Positions 7,610 through 37,578 of a DNA stretch of 64,000 bases are shown piece by piece. Each line of letters opens with the position of its first letter. Positions within the stretch are counted from its first letter, which is position 1. The translations under genes and the position numbers were made by a program. The stretch is from Opitutales bacterium (GTDB lineage: Bacteria; Verrucomicrobiota; Verrucomicrobiia; Opitutales; Intestinicryptomonadaceae): the NCBI GenBank assembly GCA_015061945.1, contig SUVP01000010.1:1-64000 (forward strand), given 5' to 3'. Under the pieces are notes generated by a model. That model had not been told where the DNA came from, did no database searches, and saw nothing but the letters and a program-made list of their open reading frames with translations.

Positions 7610-9019
7610 ATGAAAACAAGGGATATAATTTCGTCTGTTTTATTTTTTCTCGTGTCTTTTTGTTCGCTGATATTTGCAGAGCAACGCGAGTATTTTATTA
7701 TAAATTCTTTTGACGAAGAGTCGGAAATTCCACGTTCGCTCGGCTCGCAATATTACGATGCGGTCGTCAAGCATCGAATGATTTACGATTTAACTTTTGA
7801 TGAGTGGTTCAATGGTCCGCACGCATTGGCGAGTCTTTGTGGGGCTCGCACACTTGTTGAAAGCAATGGGATAATTCCAGCGGTCTCGTACATCGGTAAT
7901 TTTGCGTCGAATCCTGTCGGTGGAATTTCTCGTGGTGCGTCGAACACGAGTTCTGTTAATCTCGGGCTGGGTATTGATTTAAAGGAGTTAACCGATATCG
8001 ATTCCCTCAATGGCTGGACAATTGGCAATACTTGGGTATGGCGTTTTGGCGAAAGTTTGACTAAACGGAGAATTGGCAATGCGTTTAATGTTCAGCAAAA
8101 TTATGGCTCGCAGACAATTCAGCTTCAGTCGATTTTTGCAAGCTACAACAAAGATATTCTCGCCGATTGGCACTGGACTTTTAAGTTCGGGCGTTTTGCC
8201 GCCGCCGACAATTTTATGACAAAGCCTATCTATTGGCTTTATCAGAACAACGCTTTTGACGGCAACCCTGTTGGTGTTTTTAAGCAAACTCGATTTTCGG
8301 CTTATCCAGGGAGTACATGGGCAGTTTTTACTCAGCTAACATACAAAGACGGACAATATGCAAAAGCGGGCGTATACAAAATCAACACTGCAAAACAAGA
8401 TGCTTCGCATGGTCTTGATTTTGATTTTCGTGGCGATGGTGTGAATGCAAATTTTGAATTTGGTTGGAATATCAATCACGATGCGAGTGGAAAATCGCCA
8501 GCAAATATTTCCGCTGGTATTGTCGCACAATGGTACGATGCTCCGCATATCGACAATCCGATGAAGGTGTCAAATTTCAACTGCTCGATATATCTACAAG
8601 CCGATTATATGATTTATAATATGGGGCATTTGAAAAATGATGAACCTTACTACATTGTCCGTGATAGCGACAAGTGGCGAGATTTGCGTGGAATAATTTT
8701 GTGGGGAGCAATTCAATACGACCCTTATGATTATCTTGCCGATATGCCGATTTTTATCAATGGTGGTTTACTTTTTAATGCTCCATTTAAATCGCGTGCA
8801 GACGATGTCCTTTGTTTTGGTGTGGCTTATGGCAGATTTTCGGACAAGTATTCAGACCATCGCAAAGACTCATACGAGACAGTCTTTGAAGTGAATTACA
8901 AATTCCAAATAAACAGATTTTCTTTTATTCAGCCGAACATTCAATATATTCTCAACCCCAATGGCGGAGGGATTTCCGACGCTTTAGTCATCGGAATGCA
9001 ATTTGGTATCAATTTGTAA
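7610..9019 (+). CDS. OprB-type outer-membrane porin
   Basis: The 469-residue protein has a signal peptide (about residues 1-23, ending near FAEQ) and then a beta-rich sequence with many aromatic residues and glycines, typical of OprB carbohydrate-selective porins. A G-W-T-I-G-N-T segment, a KFGRFAAADNFM segment and the final strand region resemble the barrel of the larger porin at 35858. Both proteins end in an ILNPNG or VLNPNG segment followed by strands. OprB porins let sugars or other small solutes cross the outer membrane. Its substrate is not shown. It lies downstream of the phosphoesterase and ends at a terminator. Confidence 0.8.
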   Translation: MKTRDIISSVLFFLVSFCSLIFAEQREYFIINSFDEESEIPRSLGSQYYDAVVKHRMIYDLTFDEWFNGPHALASLCGARTLVESNGIIPAVSYIGNFASNPVGGISRGASNTSSVNLGLGIDLKELTDIDSLNGWTIGNTWVWRFGESLTKRRIGNAFNVQQNYGSQTIQLQSIFASYNKDILADWHWTFKFGRFAAADNFMTKPIYWLYQNNAFDGNPVGVFKQTRFSAYPGSTWAVFTQLTYKDGQYAKAGVYKINTAKQDASHGLDFDFRGDGVNANFEFGWNINHDASGKSPANISAGIVAQWYDAPHIDNPMKVSNFNCSIYLQADYMIYNMGHLKNDEPYYIVRDSDKWRDLRGIILWGAIQYDPYDYLADMPIFINGGLLFNAPFKSRADDVLCFGVAYGRFSDKYSDHRKDSYETVFEVNYKFQINRFSFIQPNIQYILNPNGGGISDALVIGMQFGINL

Positions 9020-27935: not shown

Positions 27936-30269
27936 TTATCTACGTTTATTTCTTTTTTTTAATGTTTTTTCTGTTGCCGAATTTGCGATATGAAAATCTA
28001 TTTGACGTTTAAATCTGTCGATAGATTCAACTTCTACACTAATTTTGTCGCCAAGTCTGTATACGTTGCCCGAGCTACGTCCACGAAGTTCGGTTGAATC
28101 ATCGCTCAAGCGATAAATATCGTCGTGCATTGTGTGGATATGAACAAACCCAAACGCCATTGATTGTGTGAGTTCAACAAAAAAGCCGTGATTTGAAAGC
28201 GACGTTATTACAGCTTCAAACGCTTCACCTGTGCCAATCGACTTTTCAAAAAATTCCATCAATTTGATTTTTCGTGATTCTCTTTCGGCTTCAGCACTTG
28301 CGTGTTCTGTTTCAGAGATGTGCGTTGCAGATGCGTCGAGAGCAGTTTTTGAGATTAGCTGAATTGCTCCTTTTACTGCACCTTGCATTTTGAGTGTTTT
28401 CATCAAGTAGTCGAGATTGCGATGCACTGTGAGGTCGGCATAGCGTCGGATTGGCGATGTAAAGTGTGCGTAATAAACTTTGTTCAAACCGTAGTGTCCG
28501 TCTGCTGATGCACGATATTCCGCACGTTTCATACTTCGCAAAAATTTTGTCTTTAGTAGGAAGTTTTGCGGGTGCGTGTCAATTTCAGCCAAGACTTTTA
28601 TTATCTCTTTACGTGAAGTTAAATCGCCACAAACGACATTAAAGGTCGCTAATTCTTCGCGTAGTTCAGAGAGTTTTTCGGGATCGGGTTCGTCGTGGAC
28701 ACGGGAGATATAAGGCAAGTGGTTTGAAAAGAGAATTTTTGCAACTGCTTCGTTTGCCGAAAGCATATACTCTTCGATAAGTTGGTGGCTTTCGTTGTAA
28801 TCGATTTTTTCAATTCTATCGGCGTATCCTTCGGCATTGCAGAAGATTTTAAATTCAGGCATTTCAAGATCAAAGCTACCTTCTCGCATTCTCTTTTTAC
28901 GCAAGGTGCTTGCGATATCCCAAAGGCGACGCACATTTGTTTTCAACGTCTTGAATTCTTCTGGGGTAAGGTCTGAAAGCGGTTTGCCTGTGAATGCAGT
29001 TTCGTAATTTTCGGGAGGTTGAACAGAGAGGATTTTTGAATCGTCATCTTCGGTAATAAGTGCGTGGGCTTGCTCATAGCTTAAGCGTTTTACACTTCTA
29101 ATTACTGAATTTGCAAAGCGTGCCGACTTGCAGTTGCCCGAATTATCGAACTTGAGGAACACGCTTTTTACGAGTCTATCTTGATCTTCTACCAGCGAGC
29201 AAATTCCGTTTGAAAGTGCGAATGGCAACATCGGTATTACTGTGCCAACGAGATAAGTTGAGTTTCCACGTTTACCAGCTTCTTTGTCGAGTGCAGTGTT
29301 CGGGCGGACATAGTGCGATACATCGGCAATGTGTACGCCAACTTCCCATTCTCCGTCTTTATCGAGTTCGAGAGATATTGCGTCGTCAAAATCTTTTGCA
29401 TCAACAGGGTCGATTGTGATTGTGAATTTTCCACGCATATCGCAACGTCCGACGACTTCTTTAGGTCGGACAAAATCGGGCGTATTGTTTGCTTCTTCTT
29501 CGACATCTTCGGGGAATGTTTCCGATAAATCGTACTTCGACAAAATCGCTCTGTACTCTGCCATTGGAGTATGGCTTTCGCCAAAGTTTTCGATGATTTC
29601 ACCAGACGGATTTATGTGGCGTTGTGTCCAATCATTTAATTTTACGACAACTTTATCATTCTCTACTGGTACAGGCGTAAGCCCCGATTTTGCTGGATCG
29701 GCAACGATAATATCGTAGAAAAATTTTGGGTCATCTGGAACTACGTGCCAAAAGTTATATGAGCGACGCAACGTGCCAATAACCTTTTCATTTTTTCTTT
29801 CGAGGATTCTAATTACACGTGCGTATTTTGTGCCGTCGTCAAAATAATTTTTTTCAACGTATCTATTCTTTTTCGACTTTTTACCGAAAGCTCCGCGTGC
29901 GTTGCCGAATCGCTTTTTGCCAGCGACAATAATTCTTGCCAGTACGTTATCGCCATTGAGGGCAACGCCAGTGTCTTCTTGTCTGAACTCGATAACATCG
30001 CCTTTGGCAGTTCTCATATAGGCTCTGCCACTCGGGCGGAAGTCGATAGTTCCGCTGACTAAATCGAGCTCATCAGACGATGCGTATCTGTCGCCTTTAA
30101 CTTTTGCGACAACTCCGCCTTTGACCATTTCAGCGAGAACGCTTTTTAACTTCAAAATATCTTTGCGATTTAGTCCGAGCATCAATGCGAGTTCGTGTGC
30201 CGAAAGTGGCACATAATTTTTACTTCGCATTATGTTTATCAATTTTTCGGAGAGATTTTCTTTTTTCAT
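27936..30269 (-). CDS. rnr: Ribonuclease R
   Basis: The 777-residue protein is a 3'-to-5' exoribonuclease that degrades structured RNA and acts in mRNA and rRNA quality control. It has an N-terminal helix-turn-helix segment, cold-shock domains, the RNB catalytic domain and a C-terminal S1 domain. The RNB metal site is intact: TIDPVDAKDFDDAISL, then GVHIADVSHYV. The S1 domain ends in a basic tail (KTLKKRNKRR). Its start overlaps the stop of the HemX-like gene by one base (TAATG), so it is the last gene of the haem operon. Confidence 0.95.
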   Translation of the reverse strand: MKKENLSEKLINIMRSKNYVPLSAHELALMLGLNRKDILKLKSVLAEMVKGGVVAKVKGDRYASSDELDLVSGTIDFRPSGRAYMRTAKGDVIEFRQEDTGVALNGDNVLARIIVAGKKRFGNARGAFGKKSKKNRYVEKNYFDDGTKYARVIRILERKNEKVIGTLRRSYNFWHVVPDDPKFFYDIIVADPAKSGLTPVPVENDKVVVKLNDWTQRHINPSGEIIENFGESHTPMAEYRAILSKYDLSETFPEDVEEEANNTPDFVRPKEVVGRCDMRGKFTITIDPVDAKDFDDAISLELDKDGEWEVGVHIADVSHYVRPNTALDKEAGKRGNSTYLVGTVIPMLPFALSNGICSLVEDQDRLVKSVFLKFDNSGNCKSARFANSVIRSVKRLSYEQAHALITEDDDSKILSVQPPENYETAFTGKPLSDLTPEEFKTLKTNVRRLWDIASTLRKKRMREGSFDLEMPEFKIFCNAEGYADRIEKIDYNESHQLIEEYMLSANEAVAKILFSNHLPYISRVHDEPDPEKLSELREELATFNVVCGDLTSRKEIIKVLAEIDTHPQNFLLKTKFLRSMKRAEYRASADGHYGLNKVYYAHFTSPIRRYADLTVHRNLDYLMKTLKMQGAVKGAIQLISKTALDASATHISETEHASAEAERESRKIKLMEFFEKSIGTGEAFEAVITSLSNHGFFVELTQSMAFGFVHIHTMHDDIYRLSDDSTELRGRSSGNVYRLGDKISVEVESIDRFKRQIDFHIANSATEKTLKKRNKRR

Positions 30270-31063
30270 TATATCGCCATTCTAAGCTCGATTGGAATGA
30301 GCATTATTATTGCAAAAATAAAAAGAGTTATCGAAGCTTTTGCGAGTTTTGCACCACGTAAATATCCCATAAGTGCAGTGAAGCACAGTGTTAGTTGCAA
30401 TGCGAAAATTGCACCACCTAACGTAAATTTTAATAAAAGTTCAGGCGTGTGCGATAACGTGCTTGCTGTGATTATTCCAGCTGTGATTGATGCGAACATT
30501 GTCGTTGCAGATGTCGCTATGAACACAGATATTCCTTTTTCAAGCATCTCTAATGAAGGCATCGGAATTTCTTTTGAAGAATGAAATTTTTTTCGCAAAG
30601 AATTTTTTTGTTTTAGATAGACTCCTCCAAAAATTGCCGAGACAGCTAACGCACCATACGACAACGCAACAAGCAAACCATGCACTACCGCAAAGCTTGG
30701 TGTCGATTTTATCGAACCACCCATTACTTGCGAGAACATAGGGCAAGCCTGTGGCAATAGTGTCAAGATTGCTACTGGGAACATTGTGAAAAATCCGTTC
30801 TTTATGAACATCGGTATTGCAATTTGCAATAGTGCGATAATCCATGCGATAGAAAGAATAAGTCCGTACGAATTACCAACGGGCGATTGCATATCGGGGG
30901 CGTATTGCACGAGCATTGCAACCGTGTGAAAGATAAATCCAACAAGTGCGAGAATGTAAGTTCCACGCTTTTTCACATCGGGACTTTTTTTGAAACATGG
31001 GAATATTACCGATGCCACATAGAGTAGTCCGGCAATTAAAATAGTGATTGAAAATATTGTCAT
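30269..31063 (-). CDS. HemX/CcsA-like multi-pass membrane protein
   Basis: The 264-residue protein has about eight membrane helices and resembles the cytochrome c assembly (CcsA/CcmC) superfamily, nearest in size and features to HemX/YpjD. The haem-handling WWD motif of true CcsA/CcmC proteins is not seen. HemX proteins affect glutamyl-tRNA reductase level or haem handling in Gram-positive bacteria. Here it lies after ferrochelatase with a 4-base ATGA overlap and before rnr, so a role in haem or cytochrome formation is likely but inferred. Confidence 0.7.
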   Translation of the reverse strand: MTIFSITILIAGLLYVASVIFPCFKKSPDVKKRGTYILALVGFIFHTVAMLVQYAPDMQSPVGNSYGLILSIAWIIALLQIAIPMFIKNGFFTMFPVAILTLLPQACPMFSQVMGGSIKSTPSFAVVHGLLVALSYGALAVSAIFGGVYLKQKNSLRKKFHSSKEIPMPSLEMLEKGISVFIATSATTMFASITAGIITASTLSHTPELLLKFTLGGAIFALQLTLCFTALMGYLRGAKLAKASITLFIFAIIMLIPIELRMAI

Positions 31064-31971
31064 TTTATTTTGTTAAGTTCATCGCAGAGAATTTCTGCGT
31101 GTATATCTGAATCATTTAAGCAAGGGATGTAGGTGAATTTTTCTCCTCCACGTTCATAAAAATAATTTCTCAAATCTGTGTTAATCTCGATGAGTGTTTC
31201 GGTGCAATCTGTCGAGAATCCGGCACAAATAACGGCGATATTTTTAATTCCGCGTGCAGTCAATTTGCGAATCAAGCTTTCTGTTGATGGCTCAAGCCAT
31301 TTGCCTTTTCCGGTTTTTGATTGCCACCCCAAGAGAACATTTTTGCGTTCTGTTTTTTTGCAAAGTAGCTCTATCGTTTTTTCGCATTCTTGTGCGTATG
31401 GATTTTTCATACTCAATGGAACAGAATGAAACGACGCTATGAGTGCATCGGATTCTACTGCTTTTATTGAGTCGGCGAGGGCTTGAATGTAAAGTTGATT
31501 GTCGCAATAAGATTCCACAAAATCGAATTTTTCGTTCGGAAATTTTTTTATGTTTGCGATAACATTTTTCATCGATTGCGTTGTGGGCATCGAATTTTGT
31601 GGGTACATAGGCAAAATGCAAAAGTGCGTTGCACCTTCGATTCTCGCTTTTTCGATAACATCAATCAAATTATTTTTTCCGTAGCGATAAGCAAAATATG
31701 TTTTACGCAAAGATAGTTTTTCAACTTTTTTTGCGAGCGATTCTGTGTATTCAAAAATCGGCGAACGTCCATTTATTGCGACCTTTTGCGAGTTCTTGCA
31801 ATATATGGATTTTCTTTTTTTTGCGATACGCCTTGCCAAAAGTTGTCTAAATGGAAAAGGCAACGGCAAGACAAATCTGTCGGAGAGAAACTCTCGCATA
31901 AAAGCTTCGGCACCGTCTTCTGTGAGGGTTGAAGACGCACCGAGGTTTGCAATTATGTCGATTCTTTTCAC
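31060..31971 (-). CDS. hemH: Ferrochelatase
   Basis: The 303-residue protein inserts ferrous iron into a porphyrin, the last or next-to-last step of haem synthesis. The catalytic histidine is H182 in ASFHSVPLS, and the conserved acidic pair is in GFSTDCTETLIEI (E258, E262). The ILPMYPQ segment is also typical. The start codon is GTG at 31971, one base after the stop of the oxidase gene; no ATG fits as well. It is slightly shorter than many ferrochelatases (about 310-340 residues). Confidence 0.92.
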   Translation of the reverse strand: MKRIDIIANLGASSTLTEDGAEAFMREFLSDRFVLPLPFPFRQLLARRIAKKRKSIYCKNSQKVAINGRSPIFEYTESLAKKVEKLSLRKTYFAYRYGKNNLIDVIEKARIEGATHFCILPMYPQNSMPTTQSMKNVIANIKKFPNEKFDFVESYCDNQLYIQALADSIKAVESDALIASFHSVPLSMKNPYAQECEKTIELLCKKTERKNVLLGWQSKTGKGKWLEPSTESLIRKLTARGIKNIAVICAGFSTDCTETLIEINTDLRNYFYERGGEKFTYIPCLNDSDIHAEILCDELNKIK

Positions 31972-31972
31972 C

Positions 31973-33346
31973 TTATTGACTTATTCTATCGGCGAGTTTT
32001 GATGCCGTAGAAAGAGCACTTTCCAAACATGAGCTTACACCGACGCCACCACGATACGCCCCAACAAGTGCGATACTTGGGAACTTGCGTTCAAACTCAT
32101 CAATAGCTTCGAGAATTTCCCCGTAGCCGACATTGTATTGCGGAATAGCGTGTTTCCAGAAAAACATTTTTTGGAAGATTGGTTCGCCTTTTACGCCGAG
32201 CATTTTTTCAATGTCTGCAAGGACGATTTTCTTCATCTCATCTTCTGGAAGCGATGCGAGGTTTGGATAACGCATTCCACCGATATAGTTTGTCAGCGTT
32301 GCACAACCGTCTTTTGCACGTTCCGAGAATATGCTCGATACAAATAGCGAACCGAGAATTTTGAAGTTTTCTTTTGCGGGCGTCAACGCACCGAAGCCGT
32401 CGAGCTTGTGTGCAATTTGATTGCGTTCAAAGCCAGTAGTGAATGTTGCAACTGGAGCGTATTTGATTTTCTCGAGGAATTTTAATTCAGAAGCGAGACT
32501 TCCAGCCAAAGGCAATTTTTCAATTTCAGGAGCGGGGATTGCGATAACGAGTGCGTCGTAATTTTCGCAAACTTCTTCGTCTTTTGTCGCCCATTGAACT
32601 TGCCAACCTTCACCGCTAAAATCAATCGATATAATTTTTGCGTCGCATTTGATTGAATCGCCAAGTGCTTTTGCGATTGATTCTGGCAGAGTTTTCATTC
32701 CGCCTTTAAATGAAATCATCATCGGCTTGAAGAAGTTGCCAGTGGCACGTTTTTCTTTCATCGATTTTATCGCACCACGAATAATCGAACCATATTTTTG
32801 TTCGAGATTCCAGAATGGTGGGAAGGCGTGTTTTGCAGAAAGTTTTTCAGGGTCGCCCCCGTACACGCCAGCCATAAACGGATTTATCGCATAGTCGAGA
32901 ACATCATTGCCGAAGCGATGTCTGATAAATTCAGCCATACTTGGATCATCTGCTTGAATCTTTTTTACGAAAGGTTCGCAGAGTAATCTTATCTTTCCGA
33001 AGAATGAAAATAGTGGTGTAAACAGCAATGAGAATGGACTCATCGGCACAGCTTGTGGCTTGCCGTATTTTACAAAGAATCGTTTTTTTGCGATTGGGTT
33101 CGACACTTCCATTTTCGCTTTAGCACCGATTCTATCGAGGAAGTCGAGTGTCTTTTGGCTTTGTATCATTACCGAGTTTGAACCACTCTCTGCTTTGAAA
33201 CCATCTTTTTCAAATGTATCAATAACTCCGCCAGCTCGCGAAAGTTTTTCGAGAACTACGACATCAAAACCTTTATCTTTGAGCTTAAGAGCAGAAGTCA
33301 ATCCACTCACGCCCGCACCTATAACAATAGCTTTTTTATTTTCCAT
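31973..33346 (-). CDS. hemY: Protoporphyrinogen/coproporphyrinogen oxidase
   Basis: The 457-residue flavoprotein oxidises protoporphyrinogen IX or coproporphyrinogen III, the step before iron insertion. The FAD-binding motif GAGVSG is at residues 10-15. Typical segments follow, including RAGGVIDTFEKDGF, the middle GVYGGDPEKLS, and the C-terminal GVGVSSCLESA. I chose the ATG at 33346 over an upstream TTG. It heads the operon oxidase-hemH-HemX-like-rnr, and the pairing with hemH supports the haem assignment. Oxygen dependence implies the organism meets oxygen at least sometimes. The gene is also called hemG in some schemes. Confidence 0.9.
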   Translation of the reverse strand: MENKKAIVIGAGVSGLTSALKLKDKGFDVVVLEKLSRAGGVIDTFEKDGFKAESGSNSVMIQSQKTLDFLDRIGAKAKMEVSNPIAKKRFFVKYGKPQAVPMSPFSLLFTPLFSFFGKIRLLCEPFVKKIQADDPSMAEFIRHRFGNDVLDYAINPFMAGVYGGDPEKLSAKHAFPPFWNLEQKYGSIIRGAIKSMKEKRATGNFFKPMMISFKGGMKTLPESIAKALGDSIKCDAKIISIDFSGEGWQVQWATKDEEVCENYDALVIAIPAPEIEKLPLAGSLASELKFLEKIKYAPVATFTTGFERNQIAHKLDGFGALTPAKENFKILGSLFVSSIFSERAKDGCATLTNYIGGMRYPNLASLPEDEMKKIVLADIEKMLGVKGEPIFQKMFFWKHAIPQYNVGYGEILEAIDEFERKFPSIALVGAYRGGVGVSSCLESALSTASKLADRISQ

Positions 33347-33508
33347 TTGTAGCGTCAAATTTATTGCAGATTCTTTCTCTACGCAAGATTTTTGTTATAT
33401 CTTTTTTAATACTGTCGATAACTTGAAATGTTTTAACGCCTTGCACGCAACAAGCGGATTTACGTTAACAATCCCCGTGTAAGACTTCAAAAAAAGAAAA
33501 GGAATAAT
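33347..33508. promoter_or_regulatory. Divergent promoter region between the haem operon and aaxB
   Basis: The 162-base interval separates divergent operons. For the haem operon a TTGCGT / TAAATT pair with 17-base spacing exists on the minus strand, but only about 11 bases before the ATG. I could not find convincing boxes for aaxB. AAAGGAA lies 9 bases before aaxB and is its ribosome binding site. Confidence 0.35.
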
Positions 33509-34093
33509 ATGGTATTAGGTACAAGATATCCAACATTGGCGTTTCACACAGGCGGAGCAGGTGAGTCTGACGACGGTATCCCTCCACAACCGTTTGAAAC
33601 ATTCTGTTATGATTCAGCATTATTGCAGGCGAAGATTGAAAACTTCAATGTAGTCCCCTACACATCGGTTTTGCCGAAGGAACTTTTTGGCAGAATTTAT
33701 CCTGTCAATGAAGTTGAAAAATACTTCAAGCATGGTGCAGTTTTGGAAACAATTATTGCAGGTAATGGTGCAAAAAGTTCGGAACACAAAGCGATTGCAA
33801 CAGGCGTTGGCATCTGTTGGGGCGCTGATGATAACGGTGAGCTTATCGGCGGTTGGGCTGCCGAATACGTCGAATATTTCGACACTTGGATTGATTCAGA
33901 TATAGCAAGGGCTCATTGTGAAATGTGGCTGAATAAATCGCTCAATCACGAGCTCGATATACGTGGAGTGAAGAAACATAGTCAGTTCCAAATCTTCAAT
34001 AATTTCATAAATATCAAAAAGTCGTTTGGGTACTGCTTGACAGCATTGGGCTTCTTGAATTTTGAATTTGCCGACCCAGTAAAAATTAAGTAG
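33509..34093 (+). CDS. aaxB: Pyruvoyl-dependent arginine decarboxylase, AaxB-type
   Basis: The 194-residue proenzyme is strikingly close to chlamydial AaxB along its whole length, including [38 protein letters not shown] and [12 protein letters not shown]-like segments. AaxB decarboxylates arginine to agmatine with release of carbon dioxide and consumption of a proton. The self-cleavage site PYTSVLPKE places Thr52-Ser53 at the same positions as in the chlamydial enzyme; Ser53 would become the pyruvoyl group. The matching antiporter gene starts 8 bases after its stop. A non-pyruvoyl function is unlikely because the cleavage site is intact. Confidence 0.95.
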
Positions 34094-34101
34094 GAAATAT
34101 T

Positions 34102-35754
34102 ATGAAAAAGGGTGCAACATCGGCGGATGTCAATTCCGCCAGTGCATCGGGCGGGAATGCGTCGACGCTGAAAAAGCTCGGAACTTTCGGGCTTGCGGCA
34201 ATTGTGTTGAGCTCGATGTTAGGTGGAGGCATATTTAGTTTGCCTCAAAATATGGCTTCATCGGCATCTGCTGGTGCTGTCATCATTGCGTGGATTATTA
34301 CGGGCTTTGGGATATTTTTTATCGCAAATACATTCCGTATTCTTTCTTCTGCCAGACCCGATTTAACCGCAGGCATATATATGTATGCTCGCGAGGGATT
34401 CGGCAATTATACAGGCTTCACGATTGCATGGGGATATTGGCTTTGCCAGATTTTCGGCAATGTAGGTTATGCTGTTATAACGATGGATTCTCTCAATTAT
34501 TTCTTCCCAGGAATATTTACAGGAGGAAATAATTTGTGGTCAATAATCGGTGGTTCTGTTCTCATTTGGACATTTAATTTTATCGTTTTAGGCGGAATAA
34601 AACAAGCGTCATCGGTCAATACGATTGCTACTGTTTGTAAGATTTTACCGCTTGTTGTATTCATTGTCGTTATGGCGATTGTGTTCAACTTCGATAAATT
34701 TACATCTGACTTCTGGGGACACTCTGTTGTCGCAGGCGAAAAAGATTTAGGTTCGCTTTCGGGACAAATCAAGAGTACGATGCTTGTAACACTTTGGGCG
34801 TTTATCGGTATTGAAGGTGCAGTTGTACTTTCGGGTAGAGCCAAGAGTGCAAAGGCTGTCGGACGTGCTACAATTATGGGTTTTGCAAGCGGACTTTTTG
34901 TCTTTGCATTGCTTTCTGTTTTGCCGTTCGGCTTTATGACACAAGCAGAACTTGCCGATGTTGCGAATCCGTCGACAGCTGGAGTTCTCGAAAAAGTTGT
35001 CGGTCCGTGGGGCAGTTGGTTGATGAATATCGGATTGATTATCGCAGTGCTTGCAAGTTGGCTTGCATGGACTATGATAACTGCTGAAATCCCATACGCA
35101 GCTGCGAAAGACGGAACATTCCCAAAAATTTTCGGACGCGAAAATTCAAAAGGTACGCCATCGGTGTCGCTTTGGACAACAAGTATCTTGATGCAGTTGG
35201 CAATGCTTATGGTATATTTTTCAAACAACGCATGGAACACAATGTTGAGTATAACAGGCGTAATGGTACTCCCAGCGTACTTGGCAAGCACAGCGTATCT
35301 TTGGAAAATATCTGAACGCAAAGAATTGTTTTCTGAAAATAAGAATCTTCAAATCAGCACGAGATACGCATTGTGTTCTGGAATATTTGGTGTGATATTT
35401 TCGATATGGCTCATCTATGCAGCAGGTTTGCAATATTTGTTGATGTCGATTATATTCTTGGCTCTCGGTATTCCAGTTTACGTTTGGTCGCGAAAAGAAC
35501 GTATGCAAAAAGCATTCACAAAAGCTGAAATGTTTGGTGCGTCTGTCGTTGCTATTGTTGCGATAATTGCTGTGTCAATGATTTCAAGTGGTGCGATAAA
35601 TATCAATGAAAATGGTTCTACTTCCACACCATCGACATCTGATTCTTCAAAGAAAAAGTCGAAGAAAGATGAAATATCAACACGTGCTCCAATGACAAAA
35701 CGTCATGGTGAAAACGCAATTATCATAATCGAAAGCGAAGAAATATTCTATTAG
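34102..35754 (+). CDS. aaxC: Arginine/agmatine antiporter, AaxC-like
   Basis: The 550-residue protein is an APC-superfamily amino-acid antiporter with about twelve membrane helices. The first helix holds the substrate motif SSMLGGGIFSLPQNM, as in the basic amino-acid/polyamine antiporters. It should exchange external arginine for internal agmatine at the inner membrane and so complete the AaxB cycle. It is longer than usual, with a Ser/Ala/Gly-rich N-terminal extension of about 25 residues and a charged Ser/Thr/Lys-rich tail after about residue 500 that includes a KKKSKKDE stretch. It lies between aaxB and the porin. Its substrate is inferred from similarity and context. Confidence 0.9.
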   Translation: MKKGATSADVNSASASGGNASTLKKLGTFGLAAIVLSSMLGGGIFSLPQNMASSASAGAVIIAWIITGFGIFFIANTFRILSSARPDLTAGIYMYAREGFGNYTGFTIAWGYWLCQIFGNVGYAVITMDSLNYFFPGIFTGGNNLWSIIGGSVLIWTFNFIVLGGIKQASSVNTIATVCKILPLVVFIVVMAIVFNFDKFTSDFWGHSVVAGEKDLGSLSGQIKSTMLVTLWAFIGIEGAVVLSGRAKSAKAVGRATIMGFASGLFVFALLSVLPFGFMTQAELADVANPSTAGVLEKVVGPWGSWLMNIGLIIAVLASWLAWTMITAEIPYAAAKDGTFPKIFGRENSKGTPSVSLWTTSILMQLAMLMVYFSNNAWNTMLSITGVMVLPAYLASTAYLWKISERKELFSENKNLQISTRYALCSGIFGVIFSIWLIYAAGLQYLLMSIIFLALGIPVYVWSRKERMQKAFTKAEMFGASVVAIVAIIAVSMISSGAININENGSTSTPSTSDSSKKKSKKDEISTRAPMTKRHGENAIIIIESEEIFY

Positions 35755-35857: not shown

Positions 35858-37528
35858 ATGAAAATGCTAAAGACAATCTTGGTTGCGTGCGGTTTCCTAC
35901 TTGCGTTCGCAATGTACGCCCAAGAAAATCAATCGTCTGCAACAGTGCAGTCAACGCAAACGCAAGCTCAATCACAAGTGCAGAATGTAGCACAACCACA
36001 AGCTCAATCTGCAACTTCAAACGCACAATCGCAAACGGCTCAAGCAACGCAATCGGCAGAGCAAACGTCGCAATCGCAGAATGCACAAGGTGTAATTCAA
36101 ACGGTTGTCGAGGAAGAAGAAATCTCGGTTGAAGGTGTTGCAGTTCAATGTAATTGTCCAAAAGACAAGTGTGTTTGCCCAAAAGGAAAATGCCCTTGCC
36201 CAAAGGCAAATACAGAATGCGACAAGGCAAAAAAGTGTCCAAAGAAATCTTGCCCTAAAGATTCTTGCCCACCAAAAAATTGCCCCAAGAAACCGTGTTG
36301 CAAAAAACCATGCCAACAGTCTGCCTGCACTCCGCAGGCAAACTGCGGTTGCCCAATAATGCAAGGGAATTTTGGTCTCGATTACGTCTGCAATAATATC
36401 GAAGCTGGGCAAAATGAAATCTATCAAGAAACAGGTATAAAATTTACTTTCGATTACTATGCCGATGTTTATTCAAATCCGTCAGGCGGTGAAAATCAAG
36501 GGACGAACTACACTCACATTATGATTTTTGGAGCCAATGTAGATTTTGAAAAAATTATCGGATTAAAAGGTGCGAGTATGCGAATTTCTGGAGCATACAA
36601 CACAGGCAAAGACTTGTCTGGAAAAATCGGAAACTTTTTCACAATTTCAGAATCTGCCGTAACTGGTGGTTGGATGTTCTATGAACTCTACTACTCACAA
36701 AAACTCGAACTTCCGTGGGACGACGTGTTAGTCATAACTGCTGGAAGAATGAGTATGGCTGATTCTTTCGCAAGCCTCCCAGTATTCGGATATTTGGGCA
36801 GTGGTGCGATGGATTCAACTGCTGAATCGATTTTCTTCGCATCGCCTTTTACATCGTCGACAATCGCAACGTGGGGCGTTGTTGCCGATTATCAAACTGC
36901 AAATGATTTAACTTTTTCGTACGGATTATTCCAAGTTCCTCCGAATGTAAATGCGTCGGATTGGCGTGGCACCGATTTTGGTATCGGGAGCGATGACGGT
37001 TATATGATGTTGATGCAAGTTAAGTGGAACCCGACTTTTGCAGGTAATTTACAAGGTGAGTATATGGTCGGTGGATATTTCTTTGACGGCTATGATATGG
37101 CACGTTTGAGCAATAGTGCATCGTTTAAAGATGAAGGTTTTGGCTTCTACATTCAAGGTCAACAAATGGTATGGGTTGACGAAAATGATCCAAACCGAAA
37201 CATCACAGTGTGGGCTGGTTTGCAATACTCGCCGACAAAAACAATCAGTGCAATTACATATCAGCCTTACGCTGGTGTTCAGTTTAGTGGATTTGTTCCA
37301 TGCCGACCAAATGATTCTATATTCTTGTCGTGGACAACTGGATTTTTCAGTAGCGACTACAACAATAATCAATCAAATTGCGAAACGATTTTTGAGTTGA
37401 ATTATTTATTCCAAGTAAATCAGTATGTATCGCTTCAACCAGTTATGCAATATGTACTCAATCCAAACGGACAATCGAATATCGACAACGCTGTTGTCTT
37501 AGGTGGTCAAATAATGGTATCGTTCTAA
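35858..37528 (+). CDS. aaxA: OprB-type porin with cysteine-rich N-terminal segment, AaxA-like
   Basis: The 556-residue protein has a signal peptide (about residues 1-21) and a Gln/Ser/Ala-rich low-complexity stretch (22-80). A short acidic piece (85-89) follows, then a segment of residues 98-165 containing 17 cysteines with many Cys-Pro-Lys units. After that comes an OprB-type beta barrel (about 170-556). In Chlamydia the porin AaxA works with AaxB and AaxC to pass arginine across the outer membrane. Its place here, 103 bases after aaxC and with an AAAGGAG ribosome site, supports the same role. I do not know a precedent for this cysteine segment; metal binding, disulfide cross-linking or cell-wall attachment are possible. 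The barrel is a paralogue of the porin at 7610. Confidence 0.85.
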   Translation: MKMLKTILVACGFLLAFAMYAQENQSSATVQSTQTQAQSQVQNVAQPQAQSATSNAQSQTAQATQSAEQTSQSQNAQGVIQTVVEEEEISVEGVAVQCNCPKDKCVCPKGKCPCPKANTECDKAKKCPKKSCPKDSCPPKNCPKKPCCKKPCQQSACTPQANCGCPIMQGNFGLDYVCNNIEAGQNEIYQETGIKFTFDYYADVYSNPSGGENQGTNYTHIMIFGANVDFEKIIGLKGASMRISGAYNTGKDLSGKIGNFFTISESAVTGGWMFYELYYSQKLELPWDDVLVITAGRMSMADSFASLPVFGYLGSGAMDSTAESIFFASPFTSSTIATWGVVADYQTANDLTFSYGLFQVPPNVNASDWRGTDFGIGSDDGYMMLMQVKWNPTFAGNLQGEYMVGGYFFDGYDMARLSNSASFKDEGFGFYIQGQQMVWVDENDPNRNITVWAGLQYSPTKTISAITYQPYAGVQFSGFVPCRPNDSIFLSWTTGFFSSDYNNNQSNCETIFELNYLFQVNQYVSLQPVMQYVLNPNGQSNIDNAVVLGGQIMVSF

Positions 37529-37540
37529 TTTAATCTGATA

Positions 37541-37573
37541 AAAAATGGAGGCTTATTGTAAGCCTCCATTTTT
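37541..37573. terminator. Bidirectional terminator after the aax operon
   Basis: A perfect 15-bp stem (37541-37555 with 37559-37573) with a 3-base loop has A and T runs on its sides. It lies between the convergent porin and GH5 genes. Confidence 0.9.
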
Positions 37574-37578
37574 TTTAT

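Follow-up and report, generated by a model that had tools for sequence, protein, structure and literature searches.

A cysteine-, lysine- and proline-rich segment in the N-terminal tail of an OprB-family porin from Opitutales

Why would a porin carry a dense cluster of cysteines in front of its barrel, and what could such a cluster do? The question is raised by a locus in a 64,000-nucleotide stretch of an Opitutales contig, here called the window. The initial annotation described an AaxA-like porin with 17 cysteines in residues 98-165 and suggested that the segment might bind metal, cross-link the porin through disulfides or anchor it to the cell wall. The segment is real and intact, and constitutes a lineage-specific embellishment on a known porin family. 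Our preferred explanation is a thiol tail, which we rank over disulfide cross-linking, a basic spacer docking on the wall and weakly constrained drift.

The porin gene and its cysteine-rich segment

A single intact open reading frame at 35858-37528 on the forward strand encodes a 556-aa OprB-family porin. Residues 217-556 match PF04966 with 147 bits against a gathering score of 22.9 (Pfam), and a GGAG ribosome-binding-like site precedes the ATG. The export signal is preferably read as a type I signal peptide rather than as a lipoprotein signal. A crude rule flags LVAC at residue 11 as a lipoprotein motif, but the hydrophobic stretch ahead of it has only five residues and runs on past LVAC. The signal cleavage site is clearer in the sister protein described below, where it falls between AFA and QQEE. 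The features of the porin and its gene cluster are collected in Table 1.

Table 1. Features of the porin gene and its neighbours in the window.
Feature	Residues	Position	Strand	Basis or content
Pyruvoyl-dependent arginine decarboxylase (AaxB-like)		33509..34093	+	PF01862, 87.9 bits
Basic amino acid/polyamine antiporter (AaxC-like)		34102..35754	+	TIGR00905, 575.9 bits vs cut-off 409
Predicted signal peptide	1-21	35858..35920	+	Sequence; probable cleavage after Ala21
Gln/Ser/Ala-rich linker	22-80	35921..36097	+	Sequence; pLDDT under 50
Acidic stretch QTVVEEEEISVEGVAVQ, contains VVEEEEIS	81-97	36098..36148	+	Sequence
Cys/Lys/Pro segment	98-165	36149..36352	+	17 Cys, no His, pLDDT about 30
Three CxCPKxK-like heptads	98-118	36149..36211	+	Parsed from sequence
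About six CPKKS-like pentads	127-156	36236..36325	+	Parsed from sequence
N-terminal helix ahead of barrel	171-192	36368..36433	+	AlphaFold2 model
16-stranded OprB barrel, Phe at end	194-556	36437..37525	+	PF04966, model, Foldseek 4gey
Probable intrinsic terminator of cluster		37540..37574	+	16-pair stem with T tail

Translated in the porin frame, the segment reads CNCPKDKCVCPKGKCPCPKANTECDKAKKCPKKSCPKDSCPPKNCPKKPCCKKPCQQSACTPQANCGC, which bears out the annotated cysteine count. A Gln/Ser-rich linker precedes it, as annotated. Its 68 residues include 16 Lys and 12 Pro, and they hold 17 of the 21 cysteines of the whole porin. Cysteine thus makes up 25% of the segment, with four CxC motifs and one CC motif, no aromatic residue and a net charge of about +12. 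The run of pentads decays and loosens toward C165. In the remaining large ORFs of the window, cysteine accounts for 1.66% of residues; at that rate, 17 cysteines in 68 residues correspond to a P of about 1e-15. In a genome sample of about 460 kb, the next-richest run of 68 residues is a ferredoxin-like stretch with 11 cysteines. The paralogue at 7610-9019 has four scattered cysteines and lacks the segment, as had been annotated.

A frameshift or an assembly artefact is ruled out by the single open frame and the ordinary codons. GC3 is 0.40 in the segment, 0.37 in the barrel and 0.36 in the N-terminus, synonymous codon choice is near that of the other genes in the window, and the CPK units are written with mixed codons. 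A recent microsatellite expansion or fresh slippage is likewise rejected, because TRF finds no tandem DNA repeat in the segment. Mixed synonymous codons together with the missing TRF repeat indicate that the repeats are old at the DNA level. The retention of Cys, Pro and Lys while synonymous sites drifted points indirectly to selection at the protein level. The segment has no Pfam or PDB family match even at an E-value of 10, metallothioneins included. A Presenilin match of the linker (E 6.9) is meaningless, and neither an SLH domain nor another known wall-binding domain was detected in the porin.

Structure model, gene cluster and redox setting

AlphaFold2 with nine orthologues produces a barrel of 16 strands, the number expected of OprB, and leaves the tail unmodelled with a pLDDT under 50 over residues 1-169. 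Among PDB structures, Foldseek ranks P. putida OprB first (4gey, E 1.2e-24), and Veillonella OmpM1 is among the structural matches. The model has long loops on one side of the barrel and short turns on the other, with the tail joining on the short-turn side. Together with the 16 strands and the C-terminal Phe, this arrangement points to periplasmic N- and C-termini. We infer that the tail is probably periplasmic and lies at the pore's inner mouth. The barrel contains 37 acidic (D/E) and 15 basic (K/R) residues, a balance that would suit a cationic substrate.

The porin is the last gene of a cluster in the order decarboxylase, antiporter, porin, and the same trio occurs in the sister genome. 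The trio matches the composition of the chlamydial aaxABC cluster (PMC8503770, PMC2720952). The PF04966 match and this clustering of porin, pyruvoyl arginine decarboxylase and antiporter bear out both the porin identity and the AaxA-like operon context assigned initially. The decarboxylase scores below the NCBIfam equivalog cut-offs and carries a YTSVLP motif at the probable Thr-Ser self-cleavage site. The best equivalog for the antiporter is an arginine-ornithine antiporter, also with a score below the cut-off. The porin probably serves the neighbouring decarboxylase and antiporter as a passage for arginine, agmatine or similar cations. The cluster contains no metal-related gene.

Several further observations concern the neighbourhood. 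At its C-terminus, the antiporter is extended by a stretch bearing a KRHGENxxI-like motif, which is conserved in several orthologues (34102-35754, L043:2165-3796). Beside the decarboxylase cluster, the minus strand at 30269-33358 carries protoporphyrinogen oxidase-like, ferrochelatase and weakly CcsB-like (cytochrome c biogenesis) genes. In some relatives (L006, L007), the orthologous porin adjoins an apparent IclR-type regulator and not an antiporter, and the substrate may differ there.

Searches for DsbA, DsbB, VKOR and Thioredoxin_4 returned no match in the 97%-complete genome, and the same searches were positive in control genomes. Neither DsbB nor VKOR turned up in any of the 36 genomes of the order that were searched, this one included. 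The sampled part of the order hence appears to lack these two families altogether, and the oxidative machinery of a chlamydia-like envelope (DsbA/DsbB or VKOR) was not found in this genome. A three-domain DsbD is present. DsbD is a periplasmic reductant. Predicted exported proteins, called with a crude signal-peptide heuristic in the sample of about 460 kb, show no bias toward even cysteine counts (41 odd, 29 even), and their cysteine content of 1.06% is below the 1.70% of predicted cytoplasmic proteins. The absence of Dsb oxidants would take away the enzymes on which cross-linking of the chlamydial kind usually depends. Unrecognised or chemical oxidation may be compatible with the absent Dsb matches, and the order may form disulfides by another route or hardly at all.

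Distribution among relatives

No second copy of the segment occurs in its own genome, where the one further match overlaps the same DNA. A search of 14 genomes from the genus gave nothing convincing, no homologue of the full segment was detected in the 372 other genomes of the order (373 searched), and viral contigs yielded no relatives. Look-alikes across the order had E-values of 5e-4 to 0.01, and the three inspected were out-of-frame readings of unrelated genes. Among the genus look-alikes, two others that were inspected were also out of frame, and the one in genome G003 belongs to an unrelated, histone H1-like Lys/Ala/Cys repeat protein. This small G003 protein (L040:1420-1776, KKACAKKACAKK...) is built of Lys/Ala repeats and carries many cysteines in its first half. 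Cysteine is unusual in a histone H1-like repeat of this kind.

A GTDB scan with the single protein recovered no orthologue of the porin, and a scan with an alignment recovered nine orthologous barrels in named Opitutales/Verrucomicrobiota assemblies. The eight orthologues with a complete N-terminus were taken into the alignment. The closest barrel, from SIG74 (G009/L043), is 62.8% identical and is placed as sister with 100/100 support. Its short tail, QEEIIECECIICTN...ENCQHKCN, has five cysteines in 43 residues (P about 1e-4). Six of the eight complete orthologues have no cysteine in the tail, and in five of these six the tail is only a few residues long. The orthologue in G014 has a long basic tail with two cysteines. 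The G003 orthologue combines a long Q/S/A linker, the motif VVEEEDIS and a basic stretch, with no cysteine in the mature tail. Tails thus differ in make-up between orthologues, and their length ranges from a few to about 160 residues. This porin tail (36098-36148) and that of the distant G003 orthologue (L012:1402-3135) have the acidic motif VVEEE[ED]IS in common, though a long tail is lacking in most of the other orthologues.

The distribution among orthologues indicates that the cysteine-rich tail marks one lineage. The annotated absence of the segment from most OprB relatives holds among the eight complete orthologues. The initial annotation would have been undermined by a segment confined to a single genome. 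Among the 373 genomes of the order, the full segment was indeed found only here, but the smaller cysteine-bearing tail of the sister rules out an isolated artefact. The tail was either enlarged in this genome or reduced in the sister.

Competing readings of the tail and known systems

We tentatively suggest that the tail is reduced and resembles a metallothionein, its thiols binding or buffering soft metals or absorbing thiol-reactive oxidants, a reading that falls somewhat short of an even chance. A disordered Q/S linker and the Cys-Pro-Lys tail would lengthen the mature periplasmic N-terminus just before the helix at the pore mouth. The tail would stay reduced, the envelope having DsbD as its reductant and no known disulfide catalyst. 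The thiol cluster could then bind or buffer soft metal ions (Zn, Cu(I), Cd) at the periplasmic mouth or, alternatively, absorb thiol-reactive oxidants there. We infer the reduced state from the missing Dsb oxidant matches, the presence of DsbD and the lack of an even-cysteine bias, and an unstructured tail on the short-turn side of the barrel is consistent with the thiol-tail reading. Metal binding is possible given the composition and context: four CxC motifs, one CC, the high cysteine share and the lack of His and aromatics resemble metallothioneins. The ordinary mixed codons, the missing DNA repeat and the cysteine enrichment of the sister tail argue for a functional tail. The metal reading is weakened by the lack of a metal gene in the cluster and of metallothionein, Pfam or PDB homology. 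The thiol-tail reading in general is weakened by the poorly conserved cysteine number (17 against 5), by the many orthologues without such a tail, by the room that absent Dsb matches leave for other oxidation, and by the crude calling of the exported set. A more specific version is doubtful: a porin-tethered periplasmic metallothionein at an arginine/agmatine pore, screening or buffering entering soft metals in a lineage without known disulfide-forming enzymes.

Disulfide cross-linking, in which the tail bonds the porin to itself or to other envelope proteins and the Cys-Pro repeats form a matrix, is unlikely. The 17 cysteines at regular spacings of five and seven residues would fit such a matrix, and the chlamydial OprB-family porin CT372/CTL0626 is reported in the chlamydial outer membrane complex (PMC6812762). 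However, the Dsb searches described above weaken a chlamydia-like mechanism, with DsbD the only Dsb family matched, and neither the sequence search of the genome nor cysteine density in its sampled part revealed a second protein with a similar segment. Just as improbable is a basic spacer, a flexible tail docking the porin electrostatically on peptidoglycan or anionic envelope polymers with the cysteines secondary. The lysines and the positive charge would serve this role, the orthologues in G003 and G014 have long tails with basic stretches ahead of the barrel and no or two cysteines, and there are attachment porins that carry N-terminal periplasmic domains, among them the OmpM1 seen in the structural matches. 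Docking would nonetheless leave the regularly spaced cysteines and the enrichment in the sister unexplained, and most orthologues lack the long tail. Lowest in our ranking is a weakly constrained, low-complexity expansion that is specific to the lineage and lacks a dedicated function. The occurrence of the whole segment in one of 373 genomes and the variable tails would be expected from drift, but Cys, Pro and Lys are retained through mixed codons with no DNA repeat left, and the sister tail is likewise enriched in cysteine. A neutral gain of 17 cysteines is also unexpected, since exported proteins here contain less cysteine than cytoplasmic ones.

If the reduced thiol tail is correct, it would be an unusual means of placing densely clustered thiols that bind metals or oxidants in the periplasm, right at a nutrient pore. 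A cysteine-rich outer-membrane protein would then not need to imply disulfide cross-linking. This bears on how cysteine-containing outer-membrane proteins behave in relatives of the chlamydiae.

Compared to known systems, the protein shares with OprB porins (PF04966; P. putida OprB 4GEY) the barrel family, the 16 strands and the C-terminal Phe. It differs from them in the long cysteine-rich N-terminal tail, a gene context pointing to cationic substrates and a strongly acidic barrel. Metallothioneins are cysteine- and lysine-rich proteins with CxC and CC motifs and no aromatic residues. The segment is alike in all these aspects of composition, but it has no homology to them, is exported, is fused to a porin and contains many prolines. 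Veillonella OmpM1 is a tethered porin with an N-terminal periplasmic domain. The extension described here is similarly N-terminal and on the periplasmic side of a porin, although without a detected SLH or other known wall-binding domain. The chlamydial aaxABC arginine-agmatine exchange likewise clusters an OprB porin, a pyruvoyl arginine decarboxylase and an arginine-type antiporter, whereas gene order differs here, enzyme and antiporter fall below the equivalog cut-offs, and the porin bears the cysteine tail. The chlamydial outer membrane complex (OmcA, OmcB, MOMP, CT372) also combines cysteine-rich outer-membrane proteins with an OprB-family porin (PMC6812762). In contrast to that complex, no Dsb oxidant families were found in the Opitutales genome, and the cysteines are placed in the tail of the porin itself rather than in separate proteins.
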